A stretch of DNA of 64,000 nt, from the NCBI GenBank assembly GCA_947492375.1, contig CANLMI010000001.1:1054001-1118000 (forward strand). Reading direction: 5' to 3'. The stretch's first letter is position 1. Every line of letters begins with the position of its first letter. Source of the stretch: an uncultured Kordiimonas sp. (lineage in GTDB: Bacteria > Pseudomonadota > Alphaproteobacteria > Sphingomonadales > Kordiimonadaceae). Both the position numbers and the translations under genes were made by a program. The notes below the pieces were generated by a model, which was given only the letters and a program-made list of their open reading frames with translations, did no database searches and was not told where the DNA came from. This document shows positions 8,490 through 47,028 of this stretch, piece by piece.

Positions 8490-10610
8490 ATGTTTGGCAA
8501 CAGTAAATCGATGATACTTGGAACGCTTGCAACCGGGGCTGTTCTAGCTGTAGGTGTTATTCTGTACGGAGAGTTTACAACGCAAACAAACGAAGCCCCG
8601 CTATCCAGCTATTTACCTCCTGTGTCTTCGGATATTCTGTTACCGCCACCTGCCAATATTTTTGTCACAACAACACCGCAAGAAACGATCCCGGGCATCA
8701 GACGCCTCAAGCTTGTTAGACCAAATATTAACAAAAGCGAGGGCGGCGAACAAAGCGAAGAGGATGCAAAAGATTATTATCTTACCGGCACCCGCAGCGC
8801 TGATCTTATTCGTGAACCTGTTGACGCTCAAATTGAAACATTCCCAAGTGCAACCCTTGAAGATGCTGTTATGGGCGCGCTTTCAGTTGATGAATGGGGG
8901 TTTCAGGCCGTTCAAAATTATCTGAATCAGGCACTAGGTGATGAAGATCAGTTAAAATTACGTATGGACGCCTTATTGACCCGCTTGGGTGAAATGGCCC
9001 CTGATTATGATCTTGCCACAGTTGCTGATGCTGCGAATCTGATTATTGAGGCAGGCTCACGGACATACTGGACTGCCTTTATGGTGCCTGTTGTTTTGGA
9101 TCCAAACTTTCAGCTAACAGATAACGCACTGGGCTGGGATCTTGGTCCGGCGGGATATGAGCCCTATCCCGAATTCGTTCGTGTAAGCCCGGCCAATAAA
9201 ATTGTTGTCGGCAGGCAAATGCGTCAGGTGAACCGAGGCGAAGAACAATCTATTCTACGTCAGGGCATTCGTGACATACAAACATTTGGGGTAAGCGGAC
9301 TGGATAATGGACGATATAGAGTTATTGTTCTTTCATCGCAAATGAGCGATTCAGTTGATCCACTGTACCCTTTTGGCGTCAATATTAAGCGTAATGGCGC
9401 CACTATTAATCTGGTTGATACACGAGCCACTGATGAATTGGTTCCTGTTATGGTCTTGGCGACCAACGGGCCGGGACGTTTATCTGATAGCCCCAATATT
9501 ATTAATGCAAGCGCGGATATCGCACCACCGGCCACAGGACACATGCTTATTACACGCGCTGATGTTATTGACGGTAACCTTACAATCAACTTTAATCAGC
9601 TTGGGCGGCAAGACACCTATATTACATCAGTCATAATATATGACGAGCCTGATACCAGTATTGAAGAAGACTTAGCCTTGCAAATTGCTGATTTCCTACA
9701 GGCAATCGCACCTGCTGCGGGCGGTAATCTTACACGCGAGCAAATACTTGCAAACCTACCGATTGTTGACCCGGTTCTCGTTTTTTCCGATGGCGGAAAC
9801 GGCCTGCCTGTTCCCGGTAGTAATCAAACACCACCACCTGGTCAGTTCCCCGACGATACTGGAGGGCCCGGCACGGGCTTCCCGCCTCCGGGTGGTAATC
9901 CTCCTCCGGGCGGTAATCCGCCGCCGGGCGGTAATCCTCCGCCGGGTGGTAATCCTCCGCCGGGCGGTAATCCTCCTCCGGGTGGTAACCCTCCGCCGGG
10001 CGGTAACCCTCCGCCGGGCGGTAATCCTCCTCCGGGTGGTAATCCTCCGCCGGGCGGTAATCCTCCTCCGGGTGGTAATCCTCCGCCGGGTGGTAATCCT
10101 CCTCCAACGACTACCGCTTCACTTGTGGCAGAGGCAGGAGTTTATGATCCAATCGATTTAGGCGAAGATTTCACCTTAAATGCCTGCGGTTCAACATTCA
10201 GTTCTGCAATATTATGCGCTATCACAGACCTTGATAATTTTGAATTGACCTGGTTGCTCGGCGATACCGTTCTTGGAACCGGCCAAACTGTTCTCCTTAA
10301 CAGTGGTGAAGGAACTCTATTCAGCACCACTGGTGACTATAATGTAACCCTGCAAATCCGTTTTGATGGGACATTATTAAGCGAAGGTGAATTCATAAAC
10401 CTTATCACTGGCGGCACTGTGTTTCTTCCGGGGGATATTATTTTGACAAGTCTGGATACAGCAATCATCAGTATTGTAGCAGCATCCGTTCCAGAGCCAG
10501 CGACAGGGCTTGTACTTGTACCAGGTTTGCTATTGATGATGCGCAGGCAGAGGCGCAAAAAACATCTGGCAACACAAATACCACAAACAGGTACAGGTAA
10601 AATTACTTAA
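8490..10610 (+). CDS. PEP-CTERM surface protein with NPPPGG repeats
   Basis: A 706-residue exported protein that ends in a PEP-CTERM sorting signal: VPEPATG, a hydrophobic stretch LVLVPGLLLMM, then the basic cluster RRQRRKK. Exosortase would cleave near the PEP motif and attach the protein to the cell surface. The N-terminus has one hydrophobic signal/anchor segment (about residues 8-26). The long N-terminal region has no recognised domain. Residues about 465-540 are a Pro/Gly-rich linker with 11 NPPPGG units, followed by a small beta-rich, PKD-like domain of about 100 residues. Unusually, about 16 residues follow the basic cluster. It is transcribed away from the EPS cluster, and a terminator follows. 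Confidence 0.87.
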   Translation: MFGNSKSMILGTLATGAVLAVGVILYGEFTTQTNEAPLSSYLPPVSSDILLPPPANIFVTTTPQETIPGIRRLKLVRPNINKSEGGEQSEEDAKDYYLTGTRSADLIREPVDAQIETFPSATLEDAVMGALSVDEWGFQAVQNYLNQALGDEDQLKLRMDALLTRLGEMAPDYDLATVADAANLIIEAGSRTYWTAFMVPVVLDPNFQLTDNALGWDLGPAGYEPYPEFVRVSPANKIVVGRQMRQVNRGEEQSILRQGIRDIQTFGVSGLDNGRYRVIVLSSQMSDSVDPLYPFGVNIKRNGATINLVDTRATDELVPVMVLATNGPGRLSDSPNIINASADIAPPATGHMLITRADVIDGNLTINFNQLGRQDTYITSVIIYDEPDTSIEEDLALQIADFLQAIAPAAGGNLTREQILANLPIVDPVLVFSDGGNGLPVPGSNQTPPPGQFPDDTGGPGTGFPPPGGNPPPGGNPPPGGNPPPGGNPPPGGNPPPGGNPPPGGNPPPGGNPPPGGNPPPGGNPPPGGNPPPGGNPPPTTTASLVAEAGVYDPIDLGEDFTLNACGSTFSSAILCAITDLDNFELTWLLGDTVLGTGQTVLLNSGEGTLFSTTGDYNVTLQIRFDGTLLSEGEFINLITGGTVFLPGDIILTSLDTAIISIVAASVPEPATGLVLVPGLLLMMRRQRRKKHLATQIPQTGTGKIT
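9897..10094 (+). repeat. Tandem 18-bp coding repeat, 11 units
   Basis: Eleven contiguous 18-base units encode NPPPGG, flanked by a degenerate FPPPGG unit before and a truncated NPPP after. The units differ only at third codon positions (for example CCT/CCG and GGC/GGT), so the peptide is perfectly kept while the DNA has drifted. The period is a multiple of three, so unit gain or loss would alter linker length without a frameshift. Confidence 0.97.
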
Positions 10611-33171: not shown

Positions 33172-33186
33172 TGGCACACCCTTTGC
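33172..33186 (+). promoter_or_regulatory. Sigma-54 promoter of first flagellin gene
   Basis: TGGCACACCCTTTGC has exact GG-N10-GC spacing and is closest of the five to the consensus. It lies about 62 bases before the flagellin ATG. Between them is one imperfect hairpin, CAAATACTC / GAGTTTG with a bulged T. Confidence 0.88.
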
Positions 33187-33247
33187 TTTTATCAAGTCAA
33201 ATACTCTAAATGAGTTTGAACAGATTGTGAAAGAAAGGAGAGGTAAA

Positions 33248-34075
33248 ATGGCCTTTTCAGTTAATGTAAACGAACCAGCTTTACTTGCGCTACGTGCTTT
33301 GACAAATACAAATACTGATCTTCAAACAACCCAGGAGAGGATCAGTACAGGCCTTGAAATTGGATCAGCACGTGACAACGCAGCGATCTTTTCAATCGCG
33401 CAACAGTTGCGCGGCGATGTGCGCGGCCTTAACGCTGTACGCCAATCACTTGATCGCGGTATTTCAACCATCGATGTTGCCCTTGCCGCATCTACAGCAA
33501 TTTCAGACTTGTTGCTAGAATTAAAAGAACGCGCCGTAGCCGCCGCTGATGCAGGCCTTGACCAAACCAGCCGGGACGCGCTTTCCACTGACTTTGTAAC
33601 TTTAAGGGATCAAATCTCTCAAATTGTCTCAAATGCAGAATTCAACGGCTCAAACCTTATTGATACCGGTAGCGACGCTATCGTTGCAATCACTAATTCA
33701 GATGCAACACAAACATTAAACATTGACCATGAGGACTTGTCGTTAGGTGGCGGTGTTATCGACATTGGCCCCACGCAAAGTATTGGCACACAAACCCTAG
33801 CTGCCGCAGCCGTAGCAGATATCAATACTTCTATCGACCAGTTGAACGAGGTATTAACACGCTTCGGTGCAGGAGCCACGGCACTGGAACAAAGCCGCGT
33901 GTTTAATGAACAGCTTCAGGATGTTGTAGAAGTTGGTATCGGCAACCTGGTAGACGCTGATCTTGCCCAAGAAAGTGCAAACCTACAAGCCCTTCAGGTA
34001 AGGCAACAGTTAGGCTTGCAATCGCTATCAATCGCCAACCAGTCACCACAGGCGATTTTATCCCTCTTCCAGTAA
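33248..34075 (+). CDS. fliC1: Flagellin 1
   Basis: Flagellin of about 275 residues with conserved terminal helices and a short variable centre. It begins MAFSVNVNEPALLALRAL and ends QSLSIANQSPQAILSLFQ, with the conserved VEVGIGNLVDADLAQESANL near the C-terminus. The ATG at 33248 follows AAAGGAGAGG; an upstream in-frame start at 33227 would add seven residues that include the RBS and is unlikely. It is clearly more divergent from the two tandem flagellins downstream than they are from each other. A terminator follows. Confidence 0.93.
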   Translation: MAFSVNVNEPALLALRALTNTNTDLQTTQERISTGLEIGSARDNAAIFSIAQQLRGDVRGLNAVRQSLDRGISTIDVALAASTAISDLLLELKERAVAAADAGLDQTSRDALSTDFVTLRDQISQIVSNAEFNGSNLIDTGSDAIVAITNSDATQTLNIDHEDLSLGGGVIDIGPTQSIGTQTLAAAAVADINTSIDQLNEVLTRFGAGATALEQSRVFNEQLQDVVEVGIGNLVDADLAQESANLQALQVRQQLGLQSLSIANQSPQAILSLFQ

Positions 34076-34144: not shown

Positions 34145-35332
34145 TTATTTTAAACAGGTTTTTATCTGTTCAATAACATAGTCCTGTTCTTCATTCGCCA
34201 AGGTAGGGTAAAGTGGTATACTAAGTGCTTTCGCATAGTATGCATTAGCTCCAGGCAATTCTTGCTCACCGTACAATTTTTCATAATATGGCTGCTTATG
34301 GACCGGTATGTAATGTACTTGAGTACCGATATTATTAACATGCAATTCATCCATTACTTTTGCTCTTGATTTTCCAAGCTGATTAAAATCAATAAGTAAA
34401 GGATATAAATGCCACGCTGACGTTGAAAAACCATTACGTTCAATTGGCTGCACCAAATCAGAAAACGACATAAAGGCAGTATCGTAGCGAGCAACCAGTT
34501 CACGACGGCGTCCGCAAAATTGATCCAGTTTTTTTAACTGACTTAAACCAAGAGCACATTGCATATCAGTAGCTCGATAATTAAACCCAAGTTCGTGCAT
34601 TTCATAAAACCAAGGATTAGGCTTACCACTAGTATCCAATGCCATTTCATTGTTTTGCCAGAGGCTTTGATCTCTATTTAAATCATGGCTCCGCAGACGT
34701 CGCATACGTTCAGCTAGCTCGGTATTATTTGTCGTAACAATTCCCCCCTCGCCCATCGCAATTGATTTTACAGGATGCAATGAAAAACAACCAAAGTCTT
34801 CATACCTACCGTCCCCAGGCTTCCCACTATCAATATATTCCGCTCCTAAAGCATGACAACAATCGGTTATAATTGTCATTTCATGTTCACAGGCAACATT
34901 TGATATCTCGGCCATTTCGCATGATTGCCCATTAAGATGGACTGGTATGACAGCTTTGGGCCTTTTACTAGCAACGCTAATAGCATCTTGCATCGCCTCA
35001 CTAGTCATAAGCCCCGTTTTCGGATCAACATCAGCGAAAACAACATCTGCGCCAATCATACGAACAACATTTGCTGTCGATAGAAAAGTTATAGATGGAA
35101 CAACAACTAAATCACCTGGCTTTATATTCGCTGCAATCACAGCCAAATGTAGCGCTGTTGTTCCATTAGAACAAACAATGGCTTCTTTTACGCCAATTTT
35201 AGCAGCGAATGCTTTCTCAAGCTCTGAAACAACAGGGCCGCCGGTCAAGAAATCCGATTTCAATACCGAAGTAACTGCCTCGATATCTTCCGAGTCAATA
35301 CTATGACGCCCATAAGGTAAAAAGCCATCCAT
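34145..35332 (-). CDS. pseC: PseC: UDP-4-amino-4,6-dideoxy-L-AltNAc aminotransferase
   Basis: PLP-dependent DegT/DnrJ/EryC1 aminotransferase of about 395 residues for step two of pseudaminic acid synthesis. The PLP lysine lies in FSLHPVKSIAMGEGGIVTT; other motifs are CSNGTTALHLAV, DCCHALGAEY and NYRATDMQCALGLSQLKKLD. The ATG at 35332 is supported by GGAG six bases upstream; a TTG at 35344 is the alternative. It follows pseB with a 12-base gap, and both are divergent from pseG. FlmB is the Caulobacter equivalent. Confidence 0.94.
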   Translation of the reverse strand: MDGFLPYGRHSIDSEDIEAVTSVLKSDFLTGGPVVSELEKAFAAKIGVKEAIVCSNGTTALHLAVIAANIKPGDLVVVPSITFLSTANVVRMIGADVVFADVDPKTGLMTSEAMQDAISVASKRPKAVIPVHLNGQSCEMAEISNVACEHEMTIITDCCHALGAEYIDSGKPGDGRYEDFGCFSLHPVKSIAMGEGGIVTTNNTELAERMRRLRSHDLNRDQSLWQNNEMALDTSGKPNPWFYEMHELGFNYRATDMQCALGLSQLKKLDQFCGRRRELVARYDTAFMSFSDLVQPIERNGFSTSAWHLYPLLIDFNQLGKSRAKVMDELHVNNIGTQVHYIPVHKQPYYEKLYGEQELPGANAYYAKALSIPLYPTLANEEQDYVIEQIKTCLK

Positions 35333-35344
35333 GTGATACTCCAA

Positions 35345-36370
35345 TCAAGCACAGACTTCTGGTAAAATCTTGACGAGATCCTCAATTGTTAACCAGTCCG
35401 AATTACTATTGCTGGTATATTCAAATCCCTCAGGAACATTTCCAAAGCCATCGTTTCTATAAGATTTCCTCGATGTAAAACTGAGCTCTGGTTCGATAGC
35501 AAATCGGTCACCTAAATCAACTGTATGTCTTGCATTATAATCCGTAATCATAATCTCATGCAACTTTTCACCAGGTCTAATCCCTACATGTTTTGTAGGA
35601 ATTCCCGGGGCTATTGCTTCAACTAAATCCATAATTTTCATGGAAGGAATTTTAGGCACAAACACTTCACCACCACGCATCAAATCTAAGCAGGACAGTG
35701 TGAAATTCACCGCTTGCTCAAGCGTTATCCAAAACCGTGTCATTTGCGTATCAGTTATTGGAAGTTCAGTTGCTCCCTCTGAGAGTAATTTCTTGAAAAA
35801 AGGAATGACACTTCCACGTGACCCCAGAACATTACCATACCGTACAACTGAAAACTTCGAGCCACTTTGTGAACTTAAATTATTAGCTGCAACAAAAATT
35901 TTATCAGAAGCAAGTTTACTAGCTCCATATAGATTGATCGGATTAACTGCCTTATCTGTGGATAATGCTACAACATTTTTCACTTCAGTTCTTAGTGCAG
36001 CTTGCACAATATTTTCTGCACCCATAACATTAGTGCGTATACATTCGAAGGGATTATACTCTGCAAGCGGTACCTGCTTTTGTGCCGCAGCATGAATTAC
36101 AATATCAACACCACGAAAAGCCATAATCAAGCGATCAAGGTCTCGAACATCCCCAATGAAAAAGCGTACTTTTAACTTTTCATCATCAGTAAGAGAATTT
36201 TGTAGTTCAAAATGATTGTATTCACCGCGAGCAAATATAATTATCCGCCTTGGAGAATACTTATCAAGCAAATGCCTAATTAAAGCCTTTCCAAAAGACC
36301 CCGTCCCACCAGTAATCAAAATAGACTTTCCAGATAAATCTATCTTGGATGCGAATTTCATATTATCCAT
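35345..36370 (-). CDS. pseB: PseB: UDP-GlcNAc 4,6-dehydratase (inverting)
   Basis: NAD(P)-dependent SDR enzyme that begins pseudaminic acid synthesis from UDP-GlcNAc. NAD-binding motif TGGTGSFGKAL, then FAAA-type AAQKQVPLAEYNPFECIRTN and ALSTDKAVNPINLYGASKLA (catalytic Asp/Lys and YxxxK), and GTPTKHVGIRPGEKLHE-like C-terminal region (here GIPTKHVGIRPGEKLHEIMI). The ATG at 36370 is preferred over a TTG at 36376. FlmA is the Caulobacter equivalent. Confidence 0.95.
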   Translation of the reverse strand: MDNMKFASKIDLSGKSILITGGTGSFGKALIRHLLDKYSPRRIIIFARGEYNHFELQNSLTDDEKLKVRFFIGDVRDLDRLIMAFRGVDIVIHAAAQKQVPLAEYNPFECIRTNVMGAENIVQAALRTEVKNVVALSTDKAVNPINLYGASKLASDKIFVAANNLSSQSGSKFSVVRYGNVLGSRGSVIPFFKKLLSEGATELPITDTQMTRFWITLEQAVNFTLSCLDLMRGGEVFVPKIPSMKIMDLVEAIAPGIPTKHVGIRPGEKLHEIMITDYNARHTVDLGDRFAIEPELSFTSRKSYRNDGFGNVPEGFEYTSNSNSDWLTIEDLVKILPEVCA

Positions 36371-36482
36371 ATTCAAATACCTATTTACGGTTATTCTAAT
36401 AGTAGGATATACAATAATCCGGCCAAATATAAATGGTTTTAATACATTAAACTTTTAAATCGTTTAAAAGGCACACAAATTT

Positions 36483-37526
36483 ATGAACTTCTTAATTCGT
36501 GCAGACTCCTCAAATGACATGGGAATTGGTCATATAATGCGTTGTCTGGCAATTGCCCAGACAGGAATAAAGCGGGGTCATACATTTTCTTTTATTTCAA
36601 AGGAAAATGTTCATTTTGCGAGTTCACAAATAAAGCAAAGTAAAATAAAAACTTATACCATAATGAAGGACAGTTCTGAAACTGAAGAAGCATTGTATTT
36701 GAGCAAAATATGCCAAAACCAAGCCATAGATTATATTATTGTTGATGGTTATCACTATTCAAATTCACTAAGGAAATTGATAAAAAGCATTGGCCCTAAA
36801 ATTATTTCCATTAGCGATCATGATCGCGAAAAAAATTTACATGCAGATATAGTATTAGCGCCAAGCTTTGAGGTCGTTTCAAAAAAACTGATCAATAAAA
36901 ACCCGGAAACTGTCTTTATACATGGAAATAACTACACTATTCTTAGGCCTGCAATAACGGCGTCCGTCAAAAATATTCCACCATTAAAAGAAAGAAAAGA
37001 AACCCTTATCTCATTTGGCGGCAGTGATCCATTTGGACTTACACTCCCAACGGCTTGTGAAACATTAAGAATAAGCAGCAATGTTGTTAACATTATCACT
37101 TCTTCATCAACATGCAATTTATTCGAAATAGAAAAAATAGCGAAAGCTAATCCACAACAAATTAATCTTCACAAAGACTGCCAGAATATTGAAAATGTTA
37201 TCCTTTCGTGCGGCATAGCAATATCAGCAGGAGGAAATACTTTGAATGAATTAGTGACACTTCAGACCCCAACTATTGCCGTTGTAGTTGCAGACAATCA
37301 ATATAATAACTCCAACAAACTCGCACAGCTTGGCGCGTGCGAACTAGTTGATGTAAGGGAAATCATTAAAAAACCTGAAAAAATTGGCGTGAATATTGCT
37401 CAAACTTACCGAAACCTTAGGAATTCCAATTCCCATCGAGAGCGAATGGTTGACATTGCTATAAACACTTTTGACGGATTAGGTATTGAACGTTTTTTTG
37501 ATAAACTGGAACATCGAGTATCATAA
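36483..37526 (+). CDS. pseG: PseG: UDP-2,4-diacetamido-2,4,6-trideoxy-altrose hydrolase
   Basis: GT-B-like hydrolase of 347 residues that removes UDP in pseudaminic acid synthesis. The N-terminus reads IRADSSNDMGIGHIMRCLAI; GIGHIMRC carries the catalytic His. LISFGGSDPFGL and AISAGGNTLNELVTL are conserved nucleotide-binding segments. Base composition is notably AT-rich. Its stop and the pseI start overlap (TAATG), and the gene diverges from pseB across a 106-base region. Confidence 0.92.
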   Translation: MNFLIRADSSNDMGIGHIMRCLAIAQTGIKRGHTFSFISKENVHFASSQIKQSKIKTYTIMKDSSETEEALYLSKICQNQAIDYIIVDGYHYSNSLRKLIKSIGPKIISISDHDREKNLHADIVLAPSFEVVSKKLINKNPETVFIHGNNYTILRPAITASVKNIPPLKERKETLISFGGSDPFGLTLPTACETLRISSNVVNIITSSSTCNLFEIEKIAKANPQQINLHKDCQNIENVILSCGIAISAGGNTLNELVTLQTPTIAVVVADNQYNNSNKLAQLGACELVDVREIIKKPEKIGVNIAQTYRNLRNSNSHRERMVDIAINTFDGLGIERFFDKLEHRVS

Positions 37527-38575
37527 TGAGCACAAATTTCAAAATTAATGATCATCAAGTTGGTGAGGATCATGACCCTTACATAATTTCAGAGATGTCA
37601 GGGAACCACAACAATGATATCAATCGTGCCTTCAAAATAATAAAAGCCGCAAAAGATGCAGGTGCAGATGCAATTAAACTGCAAACTTACACACCAGATA
37701 CAATAACATTGGATCACGATGGCCCGGGCTTCACGTCTTCAGGCCTTTGGGAAGGGAAACGATTATACGATCTGTATGCGGAAGCAATGACCCCATGGGA
37801 ATGGCACAAAGATCTTTTTGATTATGCCAGAGAAATAGATATTACAATATTCAGCTCCCCTTTTGATAAAACTGCGGTGGACTTTTTGGAAAGCTTGAAC
37901 ACTCCAGCCTATAAGATAGCCTCTTTTGAAATTGTAGATATCCCTCTTATTCAATATGCCGCATCTACAGGCAAACCAATTATAATTTCGTCTGGCCTTG
38001 CAAGCTTAACCGAAATGCAGGAAGCAATTGATGCAGTAAAATCTACTGGCAACAGTAATATCGCAATGCTTCATTGTGTGAGTGGCTACCCTGCACCGTA
38101 TAACGACTGTAATCTGAAAACCATTCCAGACATGCAGAATAAGCTAGGAGTAACAATCGGACTTTCAGACCATTCACATGGCATATCTGCACCCGTAGCA
38201 GCTGTTACTCTTGGCGCTTCAATCATAGAAAAACATATGACTTTGAGGCGCCAAGATGGCGGCGTTGATAGCAACTTTTCTCTTGAACCAAAAGAGTTTG
38301 CCGCTATGTCAAAAGCATGCCGAGAAGCCAAGCAAGCACTCGGAAAAGTGAACTATAATTTAAAAAAGAGCGAAAAAGAAAATTTAAACCTCAGACGGTC
38401 TATTTATTCCTGCAAAGAAATAAAAGCTGGTGAGATATTTACAGCTGAAAATGTTCGCTCGGTGCGGCCTGGCTTCGGCCTAGCACCTAAACACCTACCT
38501 GATTTACTAGGAAAAGTTGCCAAAAAAAATATTCCATTTGGAACACCTATCAACTGGAGTATGATTAATGAGTAG
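37526..38575 (+). CDS. pseI: PseI: pseudaminic acid synthase
   Basis: NeuB-family condensing enzyme of 349 residues that joins phosphoenolpyruvate to the 6-deoxy-AltdiNAc sugar. The TIM-barrel part has EMSGNHNNDINRAF, AGADAIKLQTYTPDTITLDH, FSSPFDKTAVDFLE and GLSDHSHGISAPVAAVTLGA. The C-terminal SAF/antifreeze-like domain has LRRSIYSCKEIKAGEIFTAE. It overlaps both neighbours, which indicates one transcript for pseG-pseI-cytidylyltransferase. Confidence 0.94.
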   Translation: MSTNFKINDHQVGEDHDPYIISEMSGNHNNDINRAFKIIKAAKDAGADAIKLQTYTPDTITLDHDGPGFTSSGLWEGKRLYDLYAEAMTPWEWHKDLFDYAREIDITIFSSPFDKTAVDFLESLNTPAYKIASFEIVDIPLIQYAASTGKPIIISSGLASLTEMQEAIDAVKSTGNSNIAMLHCVSGYPAPYNDCNLKTIPDMQNKLGVTIGLSDHSHGISAPVAAVTLGASIIEKHMTLRRQDGGVDSNFSLEPKEFAAMSKACREAKQALGKVNYNLKKSEKENLNLRRSIYSCKEIKAGEIFTAENVRSVRPGFGLAPKHLPDLLGKVAKKNIPFGTPINWSMINE

Positions 38576-39302
38576 CGGCCAAAGTATTGCCTCAAAACCA
38601 GACAAAAATATTTCACCAATTATCTGCATATCACAAGCACGCATGACGTCAACGCGCCTCCCAGGAAAAGTCCTGATGGAAATTGATGGCAAGCCAATGC
38701 TTTGGTATCATCTTTCGAGGTTAAAGCGGTCCAAACATATTGATAAAATTGTTGTGGCTACCACAATAAATTCATCCGATGATCCAATTATCGAATTTTG
38801 CAACAATATGGGAATTGATACATTCCGAGGCGATGAATACAACGTATTAAGTCGCTATTATGATTGCGCAAAGAAATACAATGCCAAAACTATTGTTCGT
38901 GTCACATCAGACTGTCCGTTAATTGATCCAAGACTAATTGATGAATTAATTCAAAACTATAGCTATTGCACTAAAACATATGATTATATTGAATTATCTT
39001 CAATTTCATACCCGTCGGGGTTTGATGCAGAAATATTCTCGTTTGATAGCTTGTGCAAATCATACGAAAGCGCACACAAACCTTACCACCTTGAGCATGT
39101 GACTTCATATTTATATGAAAATCAGAAAATCTTTAGGACAAAACTTTATTCAAATACTCCAGAACATAACGCTGCTAAACTTAGTATCGATACAACAGAA
39201 GAGTTTGAGCGTGTCAGCAGTATTATACATCATTTCAAAAGACTTAATAACAATCACTATACTTGGTCTGATTGCATATCTTTTCTAAAACAACAATTAT
39301 AA
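38568..39302 (+). CDS. Cytidylyltransferase (SpsF-like), probable CMP-pseudaminate synthetase
   Basis: A 244-residue nucleotidyltransferase. The N-terminal motif is QARMTSTRLPGKVLMEIDGK, typical of SpsF/KdsB-like enzymes; VTSDCPLIDPRLIDEL supplies the Mg-binding region. In this operon position it most likely activates pseudaminic acid with CTP, filling the place of PseF. It overlaps pseI by eight bases. Its end overlaps the convergent oxidoreductase gene by six bases. Assignment to the family is firm; the substrate is inferred. Confidence 0.85.
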   Translation: MSSGQSIASKPDKNISPIICISQARMTSTRLPGKVLMEIDGKPMLWYHLSRLKRSKHIDKIVVATTINSSDDPIIEFCNNMGIDTFRGDEYNVLSRYYDCAKKYNAKTIVRVTSDCPLIDPRLIDELIQNYSYCTKTYDYIELSSISYPSGFDAEIFSFDSLCKSYESAHKPYHLEHVTSYLYENQKIFRTKLYSNTPEHNAAKLSIDTTEEFERVSSIIHHFKRLNNNHYTWSDCISFLKQQL

Positions 39303-41450: not shown

Positions 41451-42134
41451 ATGAAAGTTTTTATAAATCAAAGCATTTTTATTCCTTGGAAAGGTTTCTT
41501 TGATAATATTGCCGCAGCAGATTTATATATTGTTTATGATCATGTAGCTTTTAATCAACCTTCTTTTAGAAATCGCAATAAAATTCAGACAGCACAAGGG
41601 CCAAGCTTCGTTTCCATACCGGTACAAAAAATGCCTCTTGGAACGGCTATTAACAAAATACTAATTGCCGATGACAAATGGGGAACGAAATGTTGGAATA
41701 AAATCGAAAGCAATTATCGAAAAGCTAAATTTTACAAAGAATACGCTAATGAATTCAAACCAATATTCAAAGAAACAACAGAGCTACGATTGTCAGAAAT
41801 TAACCTTATATTTATTCAGCGAATTTGCGAACTACTCAATATCAACACCCCAATCGCGCTTGATACTGACTTTCAACTGGCAGGAGAACGCAATCAAAAG
41901 CTAATCTCTCTTTGCCATCAGTGTAATGCAACTCACTACTTATCTGGCCCAGGTGCTAAAGAGTACTTAGATATTAAAACTTTTAAAAAAAACGGAATTG
42001 AAGTTGAATTTTCAGACTATGATAAATATCAACCATACTCACAAATGTTTCATCCCTTTTCCCATTATGTAAGCATATTGGATATGTTATTTAATTTGGG
42101 CCCACAAACATCCAAATATATGCTTCATCCTTAA
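41451..42134 (+). CDS. WbqC-like family protein
   Basis: A protein of about 227 residues with the WbqC signature: INQSIFIPWKGFFDNIAAAD, FNQPSFRNRNKIQTAQGPSF, VSIPVQKMPLGTAINKI and CNATHYLSGPGAKEYLD. WbqC genes are regular members of O-antigen and glycan loci, but the reaction is unknown. The start at 41451 was chosen because all conserved residues begin there; the longer frame from 41316 overlaps the divergent methyltransferase. It ends convergent with the FlmG-like gene, overlapping by four bases. Confidence 0.85.
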   Translation: MKVFINQSIFIPWKGFFDNIAAADLYIVYDHVAFNQPSFRNRNKIQTAQGPSFVSIPVQKMPLGTAINKILIADDKWGTKCWNKIESNYRKAKFYKEYANEFKPIFKETTELRLSEINLIFIQRICELLNINTPIALDTDFQLAGERNQKLISLCHQCNATHYLSGPGAKEYLDIKTFKKNGIEVEFSDYDKYQPYSQMFHPFSHYVSILDMLFNLGPQTSKYMLHP

Positions 42135-43843
42135 TTAATATTTAATATTTCACGAGCTTGTGTCACAGCTTTTGGTATGATTTCTTCCCACCCATCAACA
42201 TCATCACCATGAATAATCCAATTCTTATCTTCTTCTACAAAGGGAACTTTTGTTTTTAAACCAAACCCCCACCAGATACTCGACTTCAAAGAAAGAATAA
42301 TTATCGGCGTACCTGTAGCCAATGTAAATTGTACCGGAGCTGATGTGACAGATACCACCAAATCACAACATTGTATTAATGCAATATTGGCTTCAATATC
42401 ATCCTTTAAATTCACATCATCAAAATTAATTACATCAACATCATACTGGTCTTTAAACTCTTTTAGGCTGTCCGCCACATCACCGTATTGAAGATTAACA
42501 AACGTAACATGCCTCTTAAGAGCCATAATAGCTTTCATATCCTCAATTGCAGGGTATAAATGCGCTCTAGTTTTAGATTTATTTCCCGTCGTCCAGGCCA
42601 ATCCCACCCTGGGTTTAGAAGAAATGTTAGCTAATCGAGCTTCAAAGTCTCTAAGCTTCTCTGGGTCAGAAACAAACAGGTTTTTCTTATTCGGCTTTAT
42701 ATCCTCTGGTTTTTTCCAATAAAAAGAAGCGATAGTTGCAAAGGGGCATGCAAAATCAACTTTTAATTCGCCACTTTCAAGTTGTTTTTGAACTCTCGGA
42801 AAAATACGGTATCTATAGCCATGGGAAATTTTATCAACGTACTCACATACTATTGCATTTGGAAAAGAACGTTCAAAGATCGAGACCAATCTTCTATCAA
42901 CGCCTATAATAAGTTGCTTCGCCTCTTCATAAACCTTGGGTAAAATTGACGCAAACATAACTTCATCACCAATACCCTGCTCACATGTTGCAAATAGAGT
43001 TTTCCCTTTTAATGAAGAACCATTCCACTCAGGCAGCTTATGAGTATAAATGATATGCTGCTCTCTATTTCTAGTTGAATTTAATCTTATACTGTAATGC
43101 TCCCAAGCACCTATAAGATCACCTTTCCAAAACTTTGCAAACGCCAATCCCATGTTGACTTCAGTGTTATCCGGAATCATTTCGTATGCTTTTTCCAGAT
43201 AAGGAAGGGAACTATTATATCCACCGACAAACTCTTTAGCCAATGATAAGTTGTATAATACCCTAGCATCCTCAGGCTTCAACTCAAGCGCCTGTTCATA
43301 AAAAACGATAGCATCTTCAAAACCATCTCTGTATTGCACACAGATAGCGAGAGCGTTCCAAAGACTTGCTTCCTTTGGGAAAATAGGCACCATTTGTTGG
43401 CATAATTCTATTGCTTCATCATATTTTTCTTGATCAAACAAGATAAGAACATAATTACTATAGTGCTCACCAACACTTGGCTCCATACCAATTAGTATCT
43501 GAACCAGCTTTTCAGCAACGTCATATATTTTCATTGAACGTGCAAGGTTTATAATAATCTCGCAAATTGCCGGTGTGGGCGGATTACTTAGTAAATACTG
43601 CTTCAAAATGCCCATAGCCTCTTTACGAGCACCTAAAGTAGACAAGCCATATGATAAAATCAATAGAAGGTTCTTATTATCAGGGTACTTCTTCCAGACC
43701 TGAACAAGTCCCGGCAAGGCTTTCTCCCATTCAGACTTCAAGGCATGCCTCTGAGCAACCTTAAAAACCTTCCTCAATTTCATATCGGAAAAAACGATAT
43801 GATCAAAATCAGATTGTTCGGGCTCTCGAATTACATTTTGCAT
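42131..43843 (-). CDS. flmG: TPR glycosyltransferase, FlmG-like (flagellin glycosylation)
   Basis: A 570-residue two-part protein. Residues about 20-270 are TPR repeats (for example AIVFYEQALELKPEDARVLY). The C-terminal half has a GT-B/GT9-like domain with FATCEQGIGDEVMFASILP and VGLAWTTGNKSKTRAHLYP. This matches Caulobacter FlmG in layout and length: the TPR part binds flagellin and the GT part transfers pseudaminic acid. Its place between the pse genes and flbT/flaF/flagellin genes strongly supports that role. Direct proof of sugar and acceptor is lacking. Confidence 0.83.
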   Translation of the reverse strand: MQNVIREPEQSDFDHIVFSDMKLRKVFKVAQRHALKSEWEKALPGLVQVWKKYPDNKNLLLILSYGLSTLGARKEAMGILKQYLLSNPPTPAICEIIINLARSMKIYDVAEKLVQILIGMEPSVGEHYSNYVLILFDQEKYDEAIELCQQMVPIFPKEASLWNALAICVQYRDGFEDAIVFYEQALELKPEDARVLYNLSLAKEFVGGYNSSLPYLEKAYEMIPDNTEVNMGLAFAKFWKGDLIGAWEHYSIRLNSTRNREQHIIYTHKLPEWNGSSLKGKTLFATCEQGIGDEVMFASILPKVYEEAKQLIIGVDRRLVSIFERSFPNAIVCEYVDKISHGYRYRIFPRVQKQLESGELKVDFACPFATIASFYWKKPEDIKPNKKNLFVSDPEKLRDFEARLANISSKPRVGLAWTTGNKSKTRAHLYPAIEDMKAIMALKRHVTFVNLQYGDVADSLKEFKDQYDVDVINFDDVNLKDDIEANIALIQCCDLVVSVTSAPVQFTLATGTPIIILSLKSSIWWGFGLKTKVPFVEEDKNWIIHGDDVDGWEEIIPKAVTQAREILNIN

Positions 43844-43976: not shown

Positions 43977-44378
43977 ATGGCATTAAAGTTATCACTTAAA
44001 CCTAATGAAAAACTTATCATAAATGGCGCAGTTATTGCTAATACAGATCGTAGATCTACAATTATAGTCCATAACAAAGCATCAATCTTAAGAGAAAAGG
44101 ACATTATAAAAGAAGAAGATGTAAACACACCTGCTAAGCGGATCTACTTTCCTGTAATGCTAATGTATATGGATGGTTTTCAAAATAAGTATTATGATGA
44201 ATTTGCAATCCGCATGACCGAATTTATGAGCGTTATTTCAACCGCAGAAGCAATTGCGAATTGTGTTGAAATTAGTAAATTTGTTATGGATAAGAATTTT
44301 TATAAAGCACTTATTAACTGTAAGAAGCTTATAAAGTTTGAAACTGAGCGAATGGGGAAGCTCAACAATGATGATTAA
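43977..44378 (+). CDS. flbT: FlbT, flagellin post-transcriptional regulator
   Basis: A 133-residue alphaproteobacterial protein: LKLSLKPNEKLIINGAVIAN, then TIIVHNKASILREKDII and TPAKRIYFPVMLMYMD. In Caulobacter, FlbT acts on flagellin mRNA 5' leaders and lowers their stability and translation until the hook is complete. Here it is followed within 15 bases by flaF and then by two flagellin genes with structured leaders. No sigma-54 element was recognised in the 132 bases upstream. Confidence 0.93.
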   Translation: MALKLSLKPNEKLIINGAVIANTDRRSTIIVHNKASILREKDIIKEEDVNTPAKRIYFPVMLMYMDGFQNKYYDEFAIRMTEFMSVISTAEAIANCVEISKFVMDKNFYKALINCKKLIKFETERMGKLNNDD

Positions 44379-44392
44379 AATAGAGCGAAAAT

Positions 44393-44815
44393 ATGTCGTA
44401 CCAAGCCTATCAAAAGACGCAACAGGCAGCTGAGACCCCAAGTCAAGTTGAATATAGACTACTGGCCCAAGTTACTACTGCACTTATCAAAGCAAAAGAG
44501 TTAAACCCTCGCGATAAAACTACAGTGCAAGCTCTCGATTGGAACCGACGCGTTTGGTCAACACTTGCAACTGACTGTGCTGTTGAAGGCAATCAATTAC
44601 CCAAAGAAATTCGAGCAGGCATTATTTCATTGTCAATTTGGGTATCTAAGCATACATCTGGTGTCATTAGGGGTAAAATGAAAATCGCTCCGTTGATTAA
44701 CATCAATCGGTCAATAATGGCTGGCCTTGCCAAACAGGCCGAACTACAGCAACAAATGGCGAACCAGCCAGATAGACAAAATTCATCGATCGTTTCCAAG
44801 AATACCATTTTATAA
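44393..44815 (+). CDS. flaF: FlaF, flagellin regulator/secretion factor
   Basis: A 140-residue protein: SYQAYQKTQQAAETPSQVEY, LFAKTTAALIxA-like region (here LLAQVTTALIKAKEL), LDWNRRVWSTLATDCAVEGN and LPKEIRAGIISLSIWVSKHT, the FlaF pattern. In Caulobacter it is needed for flagellin production and secretion and works opposite to FlbT. The tail of about 25 residues is Gln-rich. It forms an operon with flbT. Confidence 0.93.
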   Translation: MSYQAYQKTQQAAETPSQVEYRLLAQVTTALIKAKELNPRDKTTVQALDWNRRVWSTLATDCAVEGNQLPKEIRAGIISLSIWVSKHTSGVIRGKMKIAPLININRSIMAGLAKQAELQQQMANQPDRQNSSIVSKNTIL

Positions 44816-44948: not shown

Positions 44949-44963
44949 TGGCACACGAAATGC
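44949..44963 (+). promoter_or_regulatory. Sigma-54 promoter of second flagellin gene
   Basis: TGGCACACGAAATGC with exact GG-N10-GC spacing, 103 bases before the flagellin start. The leader RNA that follows is highly structured. Confidence 0.85.
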
Positions 44964-44977
44964 TCTTACCATTATTA

Positions 44978-45059
44978 AGAGCAAAAGCTCTGTTCACACA
45001 AAGCGAAACCGCTTTTAACCCACTAGAGCAAAATGCTCTAAGATTTCTCAGAATGGAGA
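44978..45059 (+). promoter_or_regulatory. Flagellin 2 leader: hairpin array over the RBS
   Basis: Four small inverted repeats follow each other in the predicted leader: AGAGC-AAAA-GCTCT (44978-44991), AAAGCG-AAAC-CGCTTT (45000-45015), TAGAGCA-AAA-TGCTCTA (45024-45040) and a weak TCTC...GAGA (45046-45059) that covers the GGAG ribosome binding site. Loops of the first three are A-rich. A likely target for FlbT/FlaF control. Confidence 0.65.
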
Positions 45060-45065
45060 TTTAAC

Positions 45066-45899
45066 ATGGCTTTTTCAGTCAATACAAACGCACAAGCTTT
45101 CGTCGCCTTGCAAAACCTGAACACAACAAATAGTGAACTTTCAGTCACACAAAATCGTGTAAGTACCGGGCTTGAAGTTGCCGGAGCACAAGACAATGCT
45201 GCTGTCTTTGCAATTGCACAAGGCCTTCGTGCCGATGTTGCTGGCTTAAATTCAGTTGCAGGTTCAATTGATAACGCTTCATCGGCACTTGATGTTGCGC
45301 TTTCAGCAGGTGAGGCTATATCCGATATCCTCATTGAACTTGAAAGTTTAGCCGTAGCTGCATCTGACGCGGGCATCAATGATGATAGCAGAGCAGCATT
45401 AAATGATCAGTTTCAACAATTGATTACACAGGTTGATTCAATTGTTAGTAATGCTGAATTTAATGGCATTAATGCCGTTGACGGAACCGATGATATTGTA
45501 GCCATCACGGATACAGACGCATCTGTAGCAGGCCGGATCACTATTGATGCTGAAAACTTTTCAACATCTGGAACGGGGTCACTCAGCATTAATGGGCTGA
45601 CCCTATCAGGTGCTGGCACTTCTGCCCAAGCCGCATTAACTCAAGTGCAAGCAGCAGCAACACAGGTCACATCGGCGCTATCCAATTTTGGTGCAGGTGC
45701 AAACCGCCTTGATATTCAGTCAAGTTTTACACAAAGCCTGTCTGATACAATTGAAGTTGGTATTGGTAACCTTGTTGATGCTGATCTTGCGCAAGAATCT
45801 GCAAACTTGCAGGCCTTGCAGGTACAACAGCAGCTTGGCCTATCGGCGCTTTCTATCGCCAATCAGGCTCCTGGTGCTGTCTTGTCATTGTTTGGATAA
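45066..45899 (+). CDS. fliC2: Flagellin 2
   Basis: A 277-residue flagellin. It begins MAFSVNTNAQAFVALQNLN and ends GLSALSIANQAPGAVLSLFG. The conserved N- and C-terminal helices form the filament core; the short centre (about residues 125-185) has VDGTDDIVAITDTDASVAGR and a Ser/Thr-rich turn region suitable for O-glycosylation. It is nearly identical to flagellin 3 downstream, including long stretches of identical DNA in the 3' half. A UUCG-capped terminator follows. Confidence 0.96.
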   Translation: MAFSVNTNAQAFVALQNLNTTNSELSVTQNRVSTGLEVAGAQDNAAVFAIAQGLRADVAGLNSVAGSIDNASSALDVALSAGEAISDILIELESLAVAASDAGINDDSRAALNDQFQQLITQVDSIVSNAEFNGINAVDGTDDIVAITDTDASVAGRITIDAENFSTSGTGSLSINGLTLSGAGTSAQAALTQVQAAATQVTSALSNFGAGANRLDIQSSFTQSLSDTIEVGIGNLVDADLAQESANLQALQVQQQLGLSALSIANQAPGAVLSLFG

Positions 45900-45922
45900 G
45901 AAGCAAAATGCGAAACTTTTAC

Positions 45923-45947
45923 AAGAGGCCTTCGGGCCTCTTTTTTT
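45923..45947 (+). terminator. Terminator after flagellin 2 (UUCG tetraloop)
   Basis: Stem AAGAGGCC / GGCCTCTT with a TTCG loop and then seven T. A very stable intrinsic terminator. Confidence 0.95.
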
Positions 45948-46107
45948 ATTAACCCGTAGGTATTTTTTACCCGTTAGCAAAATATCAGTGGGCCATTTTT
46001 GCCTACTATGCATTTTATGCCTACAATATTCTAAATAGTTTTGAGGCTGAAAATAATATTATTGTTTAATAATAACCAGTTAAAAAAAATCAACCTATTA
46101 AAAAAAC

Positions 46108-46122
46108 TGGCACATTCATTGC
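46108..46122 (+). promoter_or_regulatory. Sigma-54 promoter of third flagellin gene
   Basis: TGGCACATTCATTGC with exact GG-N10-GC spacing, 76 bases before the downstream leader's end at the flagellin ATG. It makes flagellin 3 an independent transcription unit. The rest of the 298-base gap 45900-46197 is AT-rich without a gene. Confidence 0.87.
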
Positions 46123-46134
46123 TTTACTCCGAAA

Positions 46135-46189
46135 GAGACAAAAGGTCTCGAAAGGCAAAATGCCTTAGTATAGTAACTCCAAAAGGGAG
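46135..46189 (+). promoter_or_regulatory. Flagellin 3 leader: hairpin array over the RBS
   Basis: Three inverted repeats in the leader: GAGAC-AAAAG-GTCTC (46135-46149), AAGGCA-AAA-TGCCTT (46152-46166) and CTCC-AAAAG-GGAG (46177-46189). The right arm of the last is the ribosome binding site GGGAG. Sequences differ from the flagellin 2 leader, but architecture and A-rich loops are the same. Confidence 0.68.
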
Positions 46190-46197
46190 AAAGCAAA

Positions 46198-47028
46198 ATG
46201 GCTTTTTCAGTAAATACCAATGCGGGCGCGTTCGTTGCCTTGCAAAATCTATCAAATACTAACAGTAACCTTGCCACCACACAAAATCGTGTAAGTACCG
46301 GACTTGAAGTTGCCGGAGCACAAGACAATGCTGCTGTCTTTGCTATTGCACAAGGCCTTCGTGCTGATGTTGCTGGTCTGAGTTCAGTTCAAGGATCACT
46401 TGATAACGCTTCGTCAGCACTTGATGTTGCATTATCAGCAGGCGAGGCTGTGTCTGACATCCTTATTGAACTAGAAGGGCTAGCAGTTTCCGCATCTGAT
46501 GCAGGCATTGATGCAGCTAGTCGGGACGCATTAAATGATCAGTTTCAACAATTAATTACACAAGTGGATTCAATTGTTAGTAATGCTGAATTTAATGGCA
46601 TTAACGCTGTTGATGGAACTGATGATATTACCGCTATCACGGATACAGACGCATCTGTAGCAGGCCGGATCACTATTGATGCTGAAAACTTTTCAACATC
46701 TGGAACCGGATCACTCAGCATTAGTGGGCTGACCCTATCAGGTGCTGGCACTTCTGCCCAAGCCGCATTAACTCAAGTACAAGCAGCAGCAACACAGGTC
46801 ACGTCGGCACTATCTAATTTTGGTGCAGGTGCAAACCGCCTTGATATTCAATCAGACTTTACACAAAGCCTGTCTGATACAATTGAAGTTGGTATTGGTA
46901 ACCTTGTTGATGCTGATCTTGCGCAAGAATCTGCAAACTTGCAGGCCTTGCAGGTACAACAGCAGCTTGGCCTATCGGCGCTTTCTATCGCCAATCAGGC
47001 TCCTGGTGCTGTCTTGTCACTATTCTAG
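46198..47028 (+). CDS. fliC3: Flagellin 3
   Basis: A 276-residue flagellin. It begins MAFSVNTNAGAFVALQNLSN and ends in APGAVLSLF. It differs from flagellin 2 at scattered positions, mostly in the N-terminal half (for example ESLAVAASDAGI to EGLAVSASDAGI), while long C-terminal coding stretches are identical at DNA level. It has its own sigma-54 promoter. Filaments probably contain both flagellins. Confidence 0.96.
   Translation: MAFSVNTNAGAFVALQNLSNTNSNLATTQNRVSTGLEVAGAQDNAAVFAIAQGLRADVAGLSSVQGSLDNASSALDVALSAGEAVSDILIELEGLAVSASDAGIDAASRDALNDQFQQLITQVDSIVSNAEFNGINAVDGTDDITAITDTDASVAGRITIDAENFSTSGTGSLSISGLTLSGAGTSAQAALTQVQAAATQVTSALSNFGAGANRLDIQSDFTQSLSDTIEVGIGNLVDADLAQESANLQALQVQQQLGLSALSIANQAPGAVLSLF

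Follow-up and report, generated by a model that had tools for sequence, protein, structure and literature searches.

Two flagellin genes of an uncultured Kordiimonas sp. are preceded by leaders that carry rows of short hairpins with A-rich loops, close to flbT and flaF, and the question that this locus raises is what these leaders do and what reads them. The stretch of DNA analyzed, hereafter the window, has 64,000 nucleotides (GenBank assembly GCA_947492375.1, contig CANLMI010000001.1, positions 1,054,001 to 1,118,000 of the forward strand). Among named organisms, the nearest relatives of this alphaproteobacterium are Kordiimonadales. FlbT was recognized decades ago as a regulator that acts on flagellins after transcription, and its control of flagellin mRNA is established in Caulobacter, where it is described as acting on the flagellin 5' UTR and as co-repressing the structural flagellins together with FljJ (PMC3930126, PMC7591256). 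A review (PMC4347634) lists no RNA recognition motif for FlbT, calls its mechanism unresolved and describes FlbT as an activator in Brucella.

The flagellin locus and its two hairpin leaders

The gene order on the plus strand is flbT, flaF and then the flagellin genes at 45066 and 46198, while a third flagellin gene lies further upstream. The features of the locus are:

33172-33186, plus strand: sigma54 promoter of flagellin 1, predicted from sequence
33248-34075, plus strand: flagellin 1, without the putative operator; candidate regulatory (FljJ-type) flagellin
43977-44378, plus strand: flbT (Pfam FlbT, 1.2e-41; NCBIfam FlbT equivalog, over the cut-off); proposed operator reader
44393-44815, plus strand: flaF (Pfam FlaF, 5.9e-33, and NCBIfam); flagellin secretion chaperone/regulator
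44949-44963, plus strand: sigma54 -24/-12 promoter TGGCACACGAAATGC of flagellin 2; consensus match, GG-N10-GC
45066-45899, plus strand: flagellin 2 (Pfam Flagellin_N and Flagellin_C); structural, with putative operator
45923-45945, plus strand: terminator-like hairpin and U run 3' of flagellin 2, from sequence
46108-46122, plus strand: sigma54 -24/-12 promoter TGGCACATTCATTGC of flagellin 3; consensus match
46198-47028, plus strand: flagellin 3 (Pfam); structural, with putative operator

The Pfam and NCBIfam identities of flbT and flaF bear out the preliminary description of this DNA, which had placed the flagellin genes next to both, and the genome carries a single FlbT, the copy at 43977-44378. 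The terminator-like hairpin after flagellin 2 suggests that flagellins 2 and 3 are probably transcribed separately. The transcription starts, inferred from the sigma54 consensus, are predicted before the hairpins and not inside or after them, as an RNA role of the hairpins supposes, and most of the flagellin leaders of relatives have the same sigma54 arrangement. The interval from flagellin 1 to flbT also contains a pseudaminic acid pathway, with pseC (34145-35344), pseB (35345-36376), pseG (36483-37526), pseI (37526-38575) and a cytidylyltransferase-like gene (38568-39302), as well as a TPR protein on the minus strand (42131-43843), which may be a FlmG-type flagellin glycosyltransferase. Furthermore, the gene at 8490-10610 encodes a PEP-CTERM-like protein that contains a long PPPGGN tandem repeat.

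The leader of flagellin 2 (leader 1) and that of flagellin 3 (leader 2) contain the following hairpins, in which the loop stands in square brackets and the strict form is C[ARAAN]G:

44978-44991, plus strand: leader 1 hairpin a, AGAGC[AAAA]GCUCU; tetraloop variant, outside the strict form
45000-45015, plus strand: leader 1 hairpin b, AAAGCG[AAAC]CGCUUU; divergent
45024-45040, plus strand: leader 1 hairpin c, UAGAGC[AAAAU]GCUCUA; strict form
45046-45059, plus strand: leader 1 hairpin d, over the Shine-Dalgarno, UCUC[AGAAUG]GAGA; from sequence and fold
46135-46149, plus strand: leader 2 hairpin 1, GAGAC[AAAAG]GUCUC; strict form
46152-46166, plus strand: leader 2 hairpin 2, AAGGC[AAAAU]GCCUU; strict form
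46177-46189, plus strand: leader 2 hairpin 3, over the Shine-Dalgarno, CUCC[AAAAG]GGAG; strict form
46187-46208, plus strand: alternative hairpin GAGAAAGC[AAAAUG]GCUUUUUC, with the start codon in the loop; excludes hairpin 3

Leader 1 thus shows two close copies of the strict design (c and d) with two looser ones (a and b) ahead of them, and its last hairpin has a form that is common among relatives. The fold of leader 1 has a z of -4.2, with none of 200 shuffles equally stable, and that of leader 2 a z of -4.7, with one of 200 equally stable. The two rows of A-loop hairpins ending over the Shine-Dalgarno, as first reported, are confirmed. Two qualifications concern their folding: in the minimum-energy fold of leader 1, stems a and c pair with each other because they share sequence, instead of forming two separate hairpins, and the Shine-Dalgarno hairpin of leader 2 has a competitor in the longer start-codon hairpin. 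The latter can form, with a stem of at least 4 bp, in 20 of 24 leaders of the leader 2 class, a count in which one arm is conserved Met-Ala-Phe coding sequence. Comparison with relatives shows that the conserved form is the array of hairpins itself. The predicted unpaired probability of the Shine-Dalgarno in both leaders is 0.06-0.20, that is, mostly paired, and on this sequence-based prediction the sigma54 transcripts have a 5' UTR able to hide it. A further hairpin, ACAC[AAAAUC]GUGU, can form inside both structural flagellin coding sequences (45147-45160 and 46279-46292); it consists of Thr-Gln-Asn-Arg-Val codons and its loop is similar to that of the leaders, which may be chance from codon use.

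Conservation and spread of the hairpin element

The comparison covered 80 flagellin regions of genomes of the same order; including the window, this made 148 leaders that precede an ATG start, of which 147 were long enough. C[ARAAN]G hairpins are present in 128 of these 147 leaders, in 105 of them at least twice, while Markov shuffles gave 1.6% and 0%, respectively. Counted without regard to a stem, CARAANG words occur 30 times per kb in leaders and 0.70 times per kb elsewhere (about 43-fold), and 68% of those in leaders are flanked by at least three further pairs compared with 8% of those elsewhere. The Shine-Dalgarno usually lies inside the last hairpin.

An alignment of 41 three-hairpin leaders shows changes on both sides in nine of 13 pairs, and 94.8% of its cells are paired, against 83.6% when shuffled and 26-53% when slid; the rows of this alignment were preselected for stems, and pairing was recounted without such selection. 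In this recount pairs 1-3 are paired in 88-92% of cases within the order (63-70% shuffled) and in 75-94% in other orders (49-62% shuffled), which exceeds all 500 shuffles both in the order and outside it. There are 13 distinct three-pair stems in the order and 15 in other orders. Conservation across orders is highest in the A-R-A-A-N loop, whereas stem bases vary and stay complementary. Selection on RNA structure and an A-rich loop as the shared feature had both been suggested from the window; the abundant compensatory changes in related genomes agree with the first, and the loop proved to be the invariant part across orders. That the RNA structure of the flagellin leaders is real is close to certain. 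In one relative, genome G057, flbT reads as two overlapping pieces (a possible frameshift or assembly error); a flagellin leader of the same genome (L087) keeps the stems, with loops that are no longer A-R-A-A-N.

The orientation of the element is strict: the A-rich loop is on the mRNA strand in 305 hairpins and on the other strand in none (205:0 in the order and 100:0 outside). Single non-Watson-Crick pairs in the stems are G-U/U-G 48 times and A-C/C-A 22 times. This strand specificity and the excess of wobble pairs argue for RNA and against a DNA site.

Structural flagellin genes that lie close to flbT are preceded by C[ARAAN]G hairpins in loci of Caulobacter, Phenylobacterium, Asticcacaulis, Maricaulis, Oceanicaulis, Rhizomicrobium, Sneathiellales and others. 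A total of 289 genomes of the class were scanned with a covariance model (R1), which under-detects leaders outside the order because its three-hairpin layout is fixed. Leaders 1 and 2 are the only matches at E 0.01 or better in the genome to which the window belongs: leader 2 scores 61.6 bits (E 3.5e-12 over the whole genome, leader 2 itself being part of the model) and leader 1 33.8 bits. In the class, 24 genomes show matches and 22 of these are FlbT-positive, compared with 99 FlbT-positive genomes among the 289 (Fisher p 1.5e-9). Of the 27 individual matches, 20 run up to the start of a flagellin gene and one lies before a flagellin-like gene, while two lie before a short reading frame that immediately precedes flbT. 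The other four have no flagellin gene behind them and appear to be chance matches. As these four include the matches of both FlbT-negative genomes, the convincing matches are restricted to FlbT-positive ones. In two related genomes (loci L153 and L154, at about 1501-1560 on the match strand), a hairpin leader with a sigma54 element stands before the short reading frame directly ahead of flbT, a position from which FlbT could control its own operon.

A separate sample of leaders gave strict hairpins in 10 of 22 FlbT-positive flagellin genomes and in none of 26 FlbT-negative ones. Since about half of the sampled FlbT-positive flagellin genomes are without strict hairpins, the link is one-way: the motif implies FlbT, and not the reverse. 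FlbT therefore need not use the A-R-A-A-N motif everywhere, in line with its activator role in Brucella, and the joint presence of FlbT and motif could also reflect shared ancestry without direct contact. Genome G071, the only clearly FlbT-positive one of its family among those sampled, shows a flagellin leader with GAAGC[AAAA]GCUUC and CAGAU[AAAAU]AUCUG after the sigma54 element; the strict pattern misses these two A-loop hairpins, which are no more than suggestive.

Flagellin 1, a flagellin without the element

Flagellin 1 starts at the AUG at 33248 and not at the GTG at 33227. Its leader shows one weak hairpin (33201-33217) and no C[ARAAN]G hairpin, and with R1 it scores 15.0 bits, against 61.6 and 33.8 bits for the other two leaders. 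The unpaired probability of its Shine-Dalgarno is 0.85 for the leader alone and 0.28 with coding sequence. In the flagellin tree, it belongs to a clade of 11 members of the same order (SH-aLRT 98), and all 11 leaders are without the element. A single imperfect hairpin and separate control of this gene had been proposed at the outset; the first is what the leader contains, and the separate clade sets flagellin 1 apart from the other two.

The other clade without the element (SH-aLRT 98) contains FljJ-like flagellins sampled from Caulobacterales and Maricaulales, whose rows in the tree were chosen as hairpin-less; a few FljJ-like genes in Maricaulis and in Caulobacter relatives show one hairpin with a related loop. 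The two groups are separate clades in the tree, although a single clade of both is not rejected (AU p 0.16). In Caulobacter, FlbT is described as binding only the FljJ protein, and FlbT-FljJ as keeping the remaining five flagellins repressed until the secretion of FljJ (PMC7591256). A putative operator on the structural flagellins and none on the divergent flagellin 1 fits this scheme, and by analogy flagellin 1 is a likely candidate for the FlbT co-repressor.

A putative translational operator and its reader

The element stands before flagellin genes across many FlbT-carrying alphaproteobacteria and is therefore probably an RNA signal by which flagellin translation is held back. We consider it likely that the leaders are multivalent translational operators read by FlbT, with FlbT as the putative binder, repression as the putative outcome and flagellin 1 as the putative co-repressor. 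The observations behind this reading are the structure, the conserved loop, the strand specificity, the position over the Shine-Dalgarno, the linkage with FlbT and the absence from the flagellin 1 clade. After the sigma54 start, the mRNA would begin with at least two short C-G-closed hairpins with an A-R-A-A-N loop, strict or looser, and a last hairpin of the same kind would hold the Shine-Dalgarno. The repeated loop would most likely be recognized by FlbT, encoded just upstream, and several FlbT subunits, or an FlbT complex, on one leader may stabilize the last hairpin and exclude ribosomes until the hook-basal body is ready. A regulatory flagellin without operator, here probably flagellin 1, would act as co-repressor of FlbT by analogy with Caulobacter, and its secretion with the help of FlaF would release the structural flagellin mRNAs.

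A wider proposal seems possible rather than probable: FlbT would be a flagellum-specific RNA-binder whose code is the repeated C-G-closed A-R-A-A-N loop, with cooperative multivalent repression and an early-secreted flagellin without operator (flagellin 1, or FljJ in Caulobacter) as co-repressor, and the whole would be an old alphaproteobacterial secretion checkpoint with an RNA-binding domain unrelated to CsrA. The predicted fold of FlbT has a five-strand N-terminal domain and a four-helix bundle. Neither the whole protein nor residues 1-50 alone gave a significant match among solved structures, known RNA-binding folds included, and no solved FlbT homologue was found by sequence. A relationship with CsrA, prompted by the look-alike N-terminal sequence L-x-L-x-x-K-x-G-E-x-I/F-x-I, found no support: the hhalign probability is 0.3% (not significant), and CsrA is absent from the fold matches listed for the N-terminal beta domain, all with a Z of 3.2 or less. 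A weak similarity to the TRAP subunit (Z 2.8) does not rise above noise.

Among the alternatives, the one that survives best keeps the array as a real RNA operator and assigns it to another reader, FlaF, Hfq or some other protein, with FlbT acting elsewhere. The A-R-A-A-N loop resembles the A-R-N repeat preference of the Hfq distal face (table in PMC4347634), and linkage cannot separate FlaF from FlbT because their genes adjoin; however, Hfq is a general factor that would not explain the restriction to flagellin leaders within the genome or to FlbT-positive genomes, and the recent literature presents FlaF as a secretion chaperone (PMC7591256), so that we judge another reader rather unlikely. 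It is very unlikely that the hairpins serve only to stabilize an abundant mRNA at its 5' end, or to hold initiation at a constant low rate, without a specific binder: 5' hairpins commonly stabilize bacterial mRNAs and the pairing of the stems is conserved, but a stabilizer needs no fixed loop, whereas here it is the loop that is best conserved across orders and that co-occurs with FlbT. Finally, downstream enhancer (ftr) sites in DNA for the sigma54 activator FlbD, with RNA hairpins as a by-product, deserve consideration because downstream FlbD sites can be used by flagellar sigma54 promoters of Caulobacter (according to titles cited in PMC3096577) and the hairpins do come after sigma54 promoters, but they are hardly tenable. 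All 305 A-loops are on the mRNA strand, the bases of the stems change freely without losing complementarity, with 48 wobbles to 22 A-C mismatches, the Shine-Dalgarno is usually within the last hairpin, and the flagellin 1 clade is sigma54-driven and has no hairpins.

With FlbT as the preferred reader, the closest known system is that of Caulobacter. It shares homologous FlbT and FlaF and sigma54 flagellins, its control through the 5' UTR would have a parallel here, and its one regulatory flagellin outside this control has a candidate counterpart in flagellin 1; the Caulobacter and Phenylobacterium loci show C[ARAAN]G hairpins before structural flagellins. It differs in that the array with its conserved loop, and how widely it occurs, are first delimited in the present comparison, and FlbT binding in Kordiimonas is putative. 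No earlier description of the RNA element or of its breadth was found, in a search that covered Anderson and Gober 2000 and Ardissone et al. 2020 through PMC3930126, PMC4347634 and PMC7591256; hairpins of fljK may be drawn in the originals. The apparent novelty lies in a repeated element defined by its loop, in its covariation and breadth, and in the possibility of separating controlled from exempt flagellins by it. A short, repeated element defined by its loop, which predicts the controlled flagellins and the exempt co-repressor, makes the FlbT mechanism testable across many alphaproteobacteria.

The flg-Rhizobiales RNA (RF01736, listed in PMC2864571), judging by its name and clade, is probably a flagellar cis element of that group. 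Neither the window nor 12 related loci matched this family at the gathering threshold, and the leader region gave no match to it even with E allowed up to 5. More generally, no Rfam family covers the leader element in the window and the 12 related loci at the gathering threshold.

In Bacillus and Campylobacter, CsrA and FliW control hag/flaA: the protein binds hairpin loops of the flagellin leader, one of them over the Shine-Dalgarno, and translation is coupled to secretion. FlbT/FlaF have been likened to this control (PMC4894983). The leaders described here are alike in showing hairpin loops in a flagellin leader, one of them over the Shine-Dalgarno, and would work alike. They are unlike in that the genome gave no PF02599 match for csrA, which was detected in the positive controls E. 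coli, B. subtilis and T. maritima, and in that the loops are A-R-A-A-N instead of GGA, which occurs only in the Shine-Dalgarno arm or its loop junction; the FlbT-CsrA alignment, moreover, is not significant. If the wider proposal is true, the FlbT checkpoint would play, in bacteria that carry FlbT, the part that CsrA-FliW plays in other bacteria.
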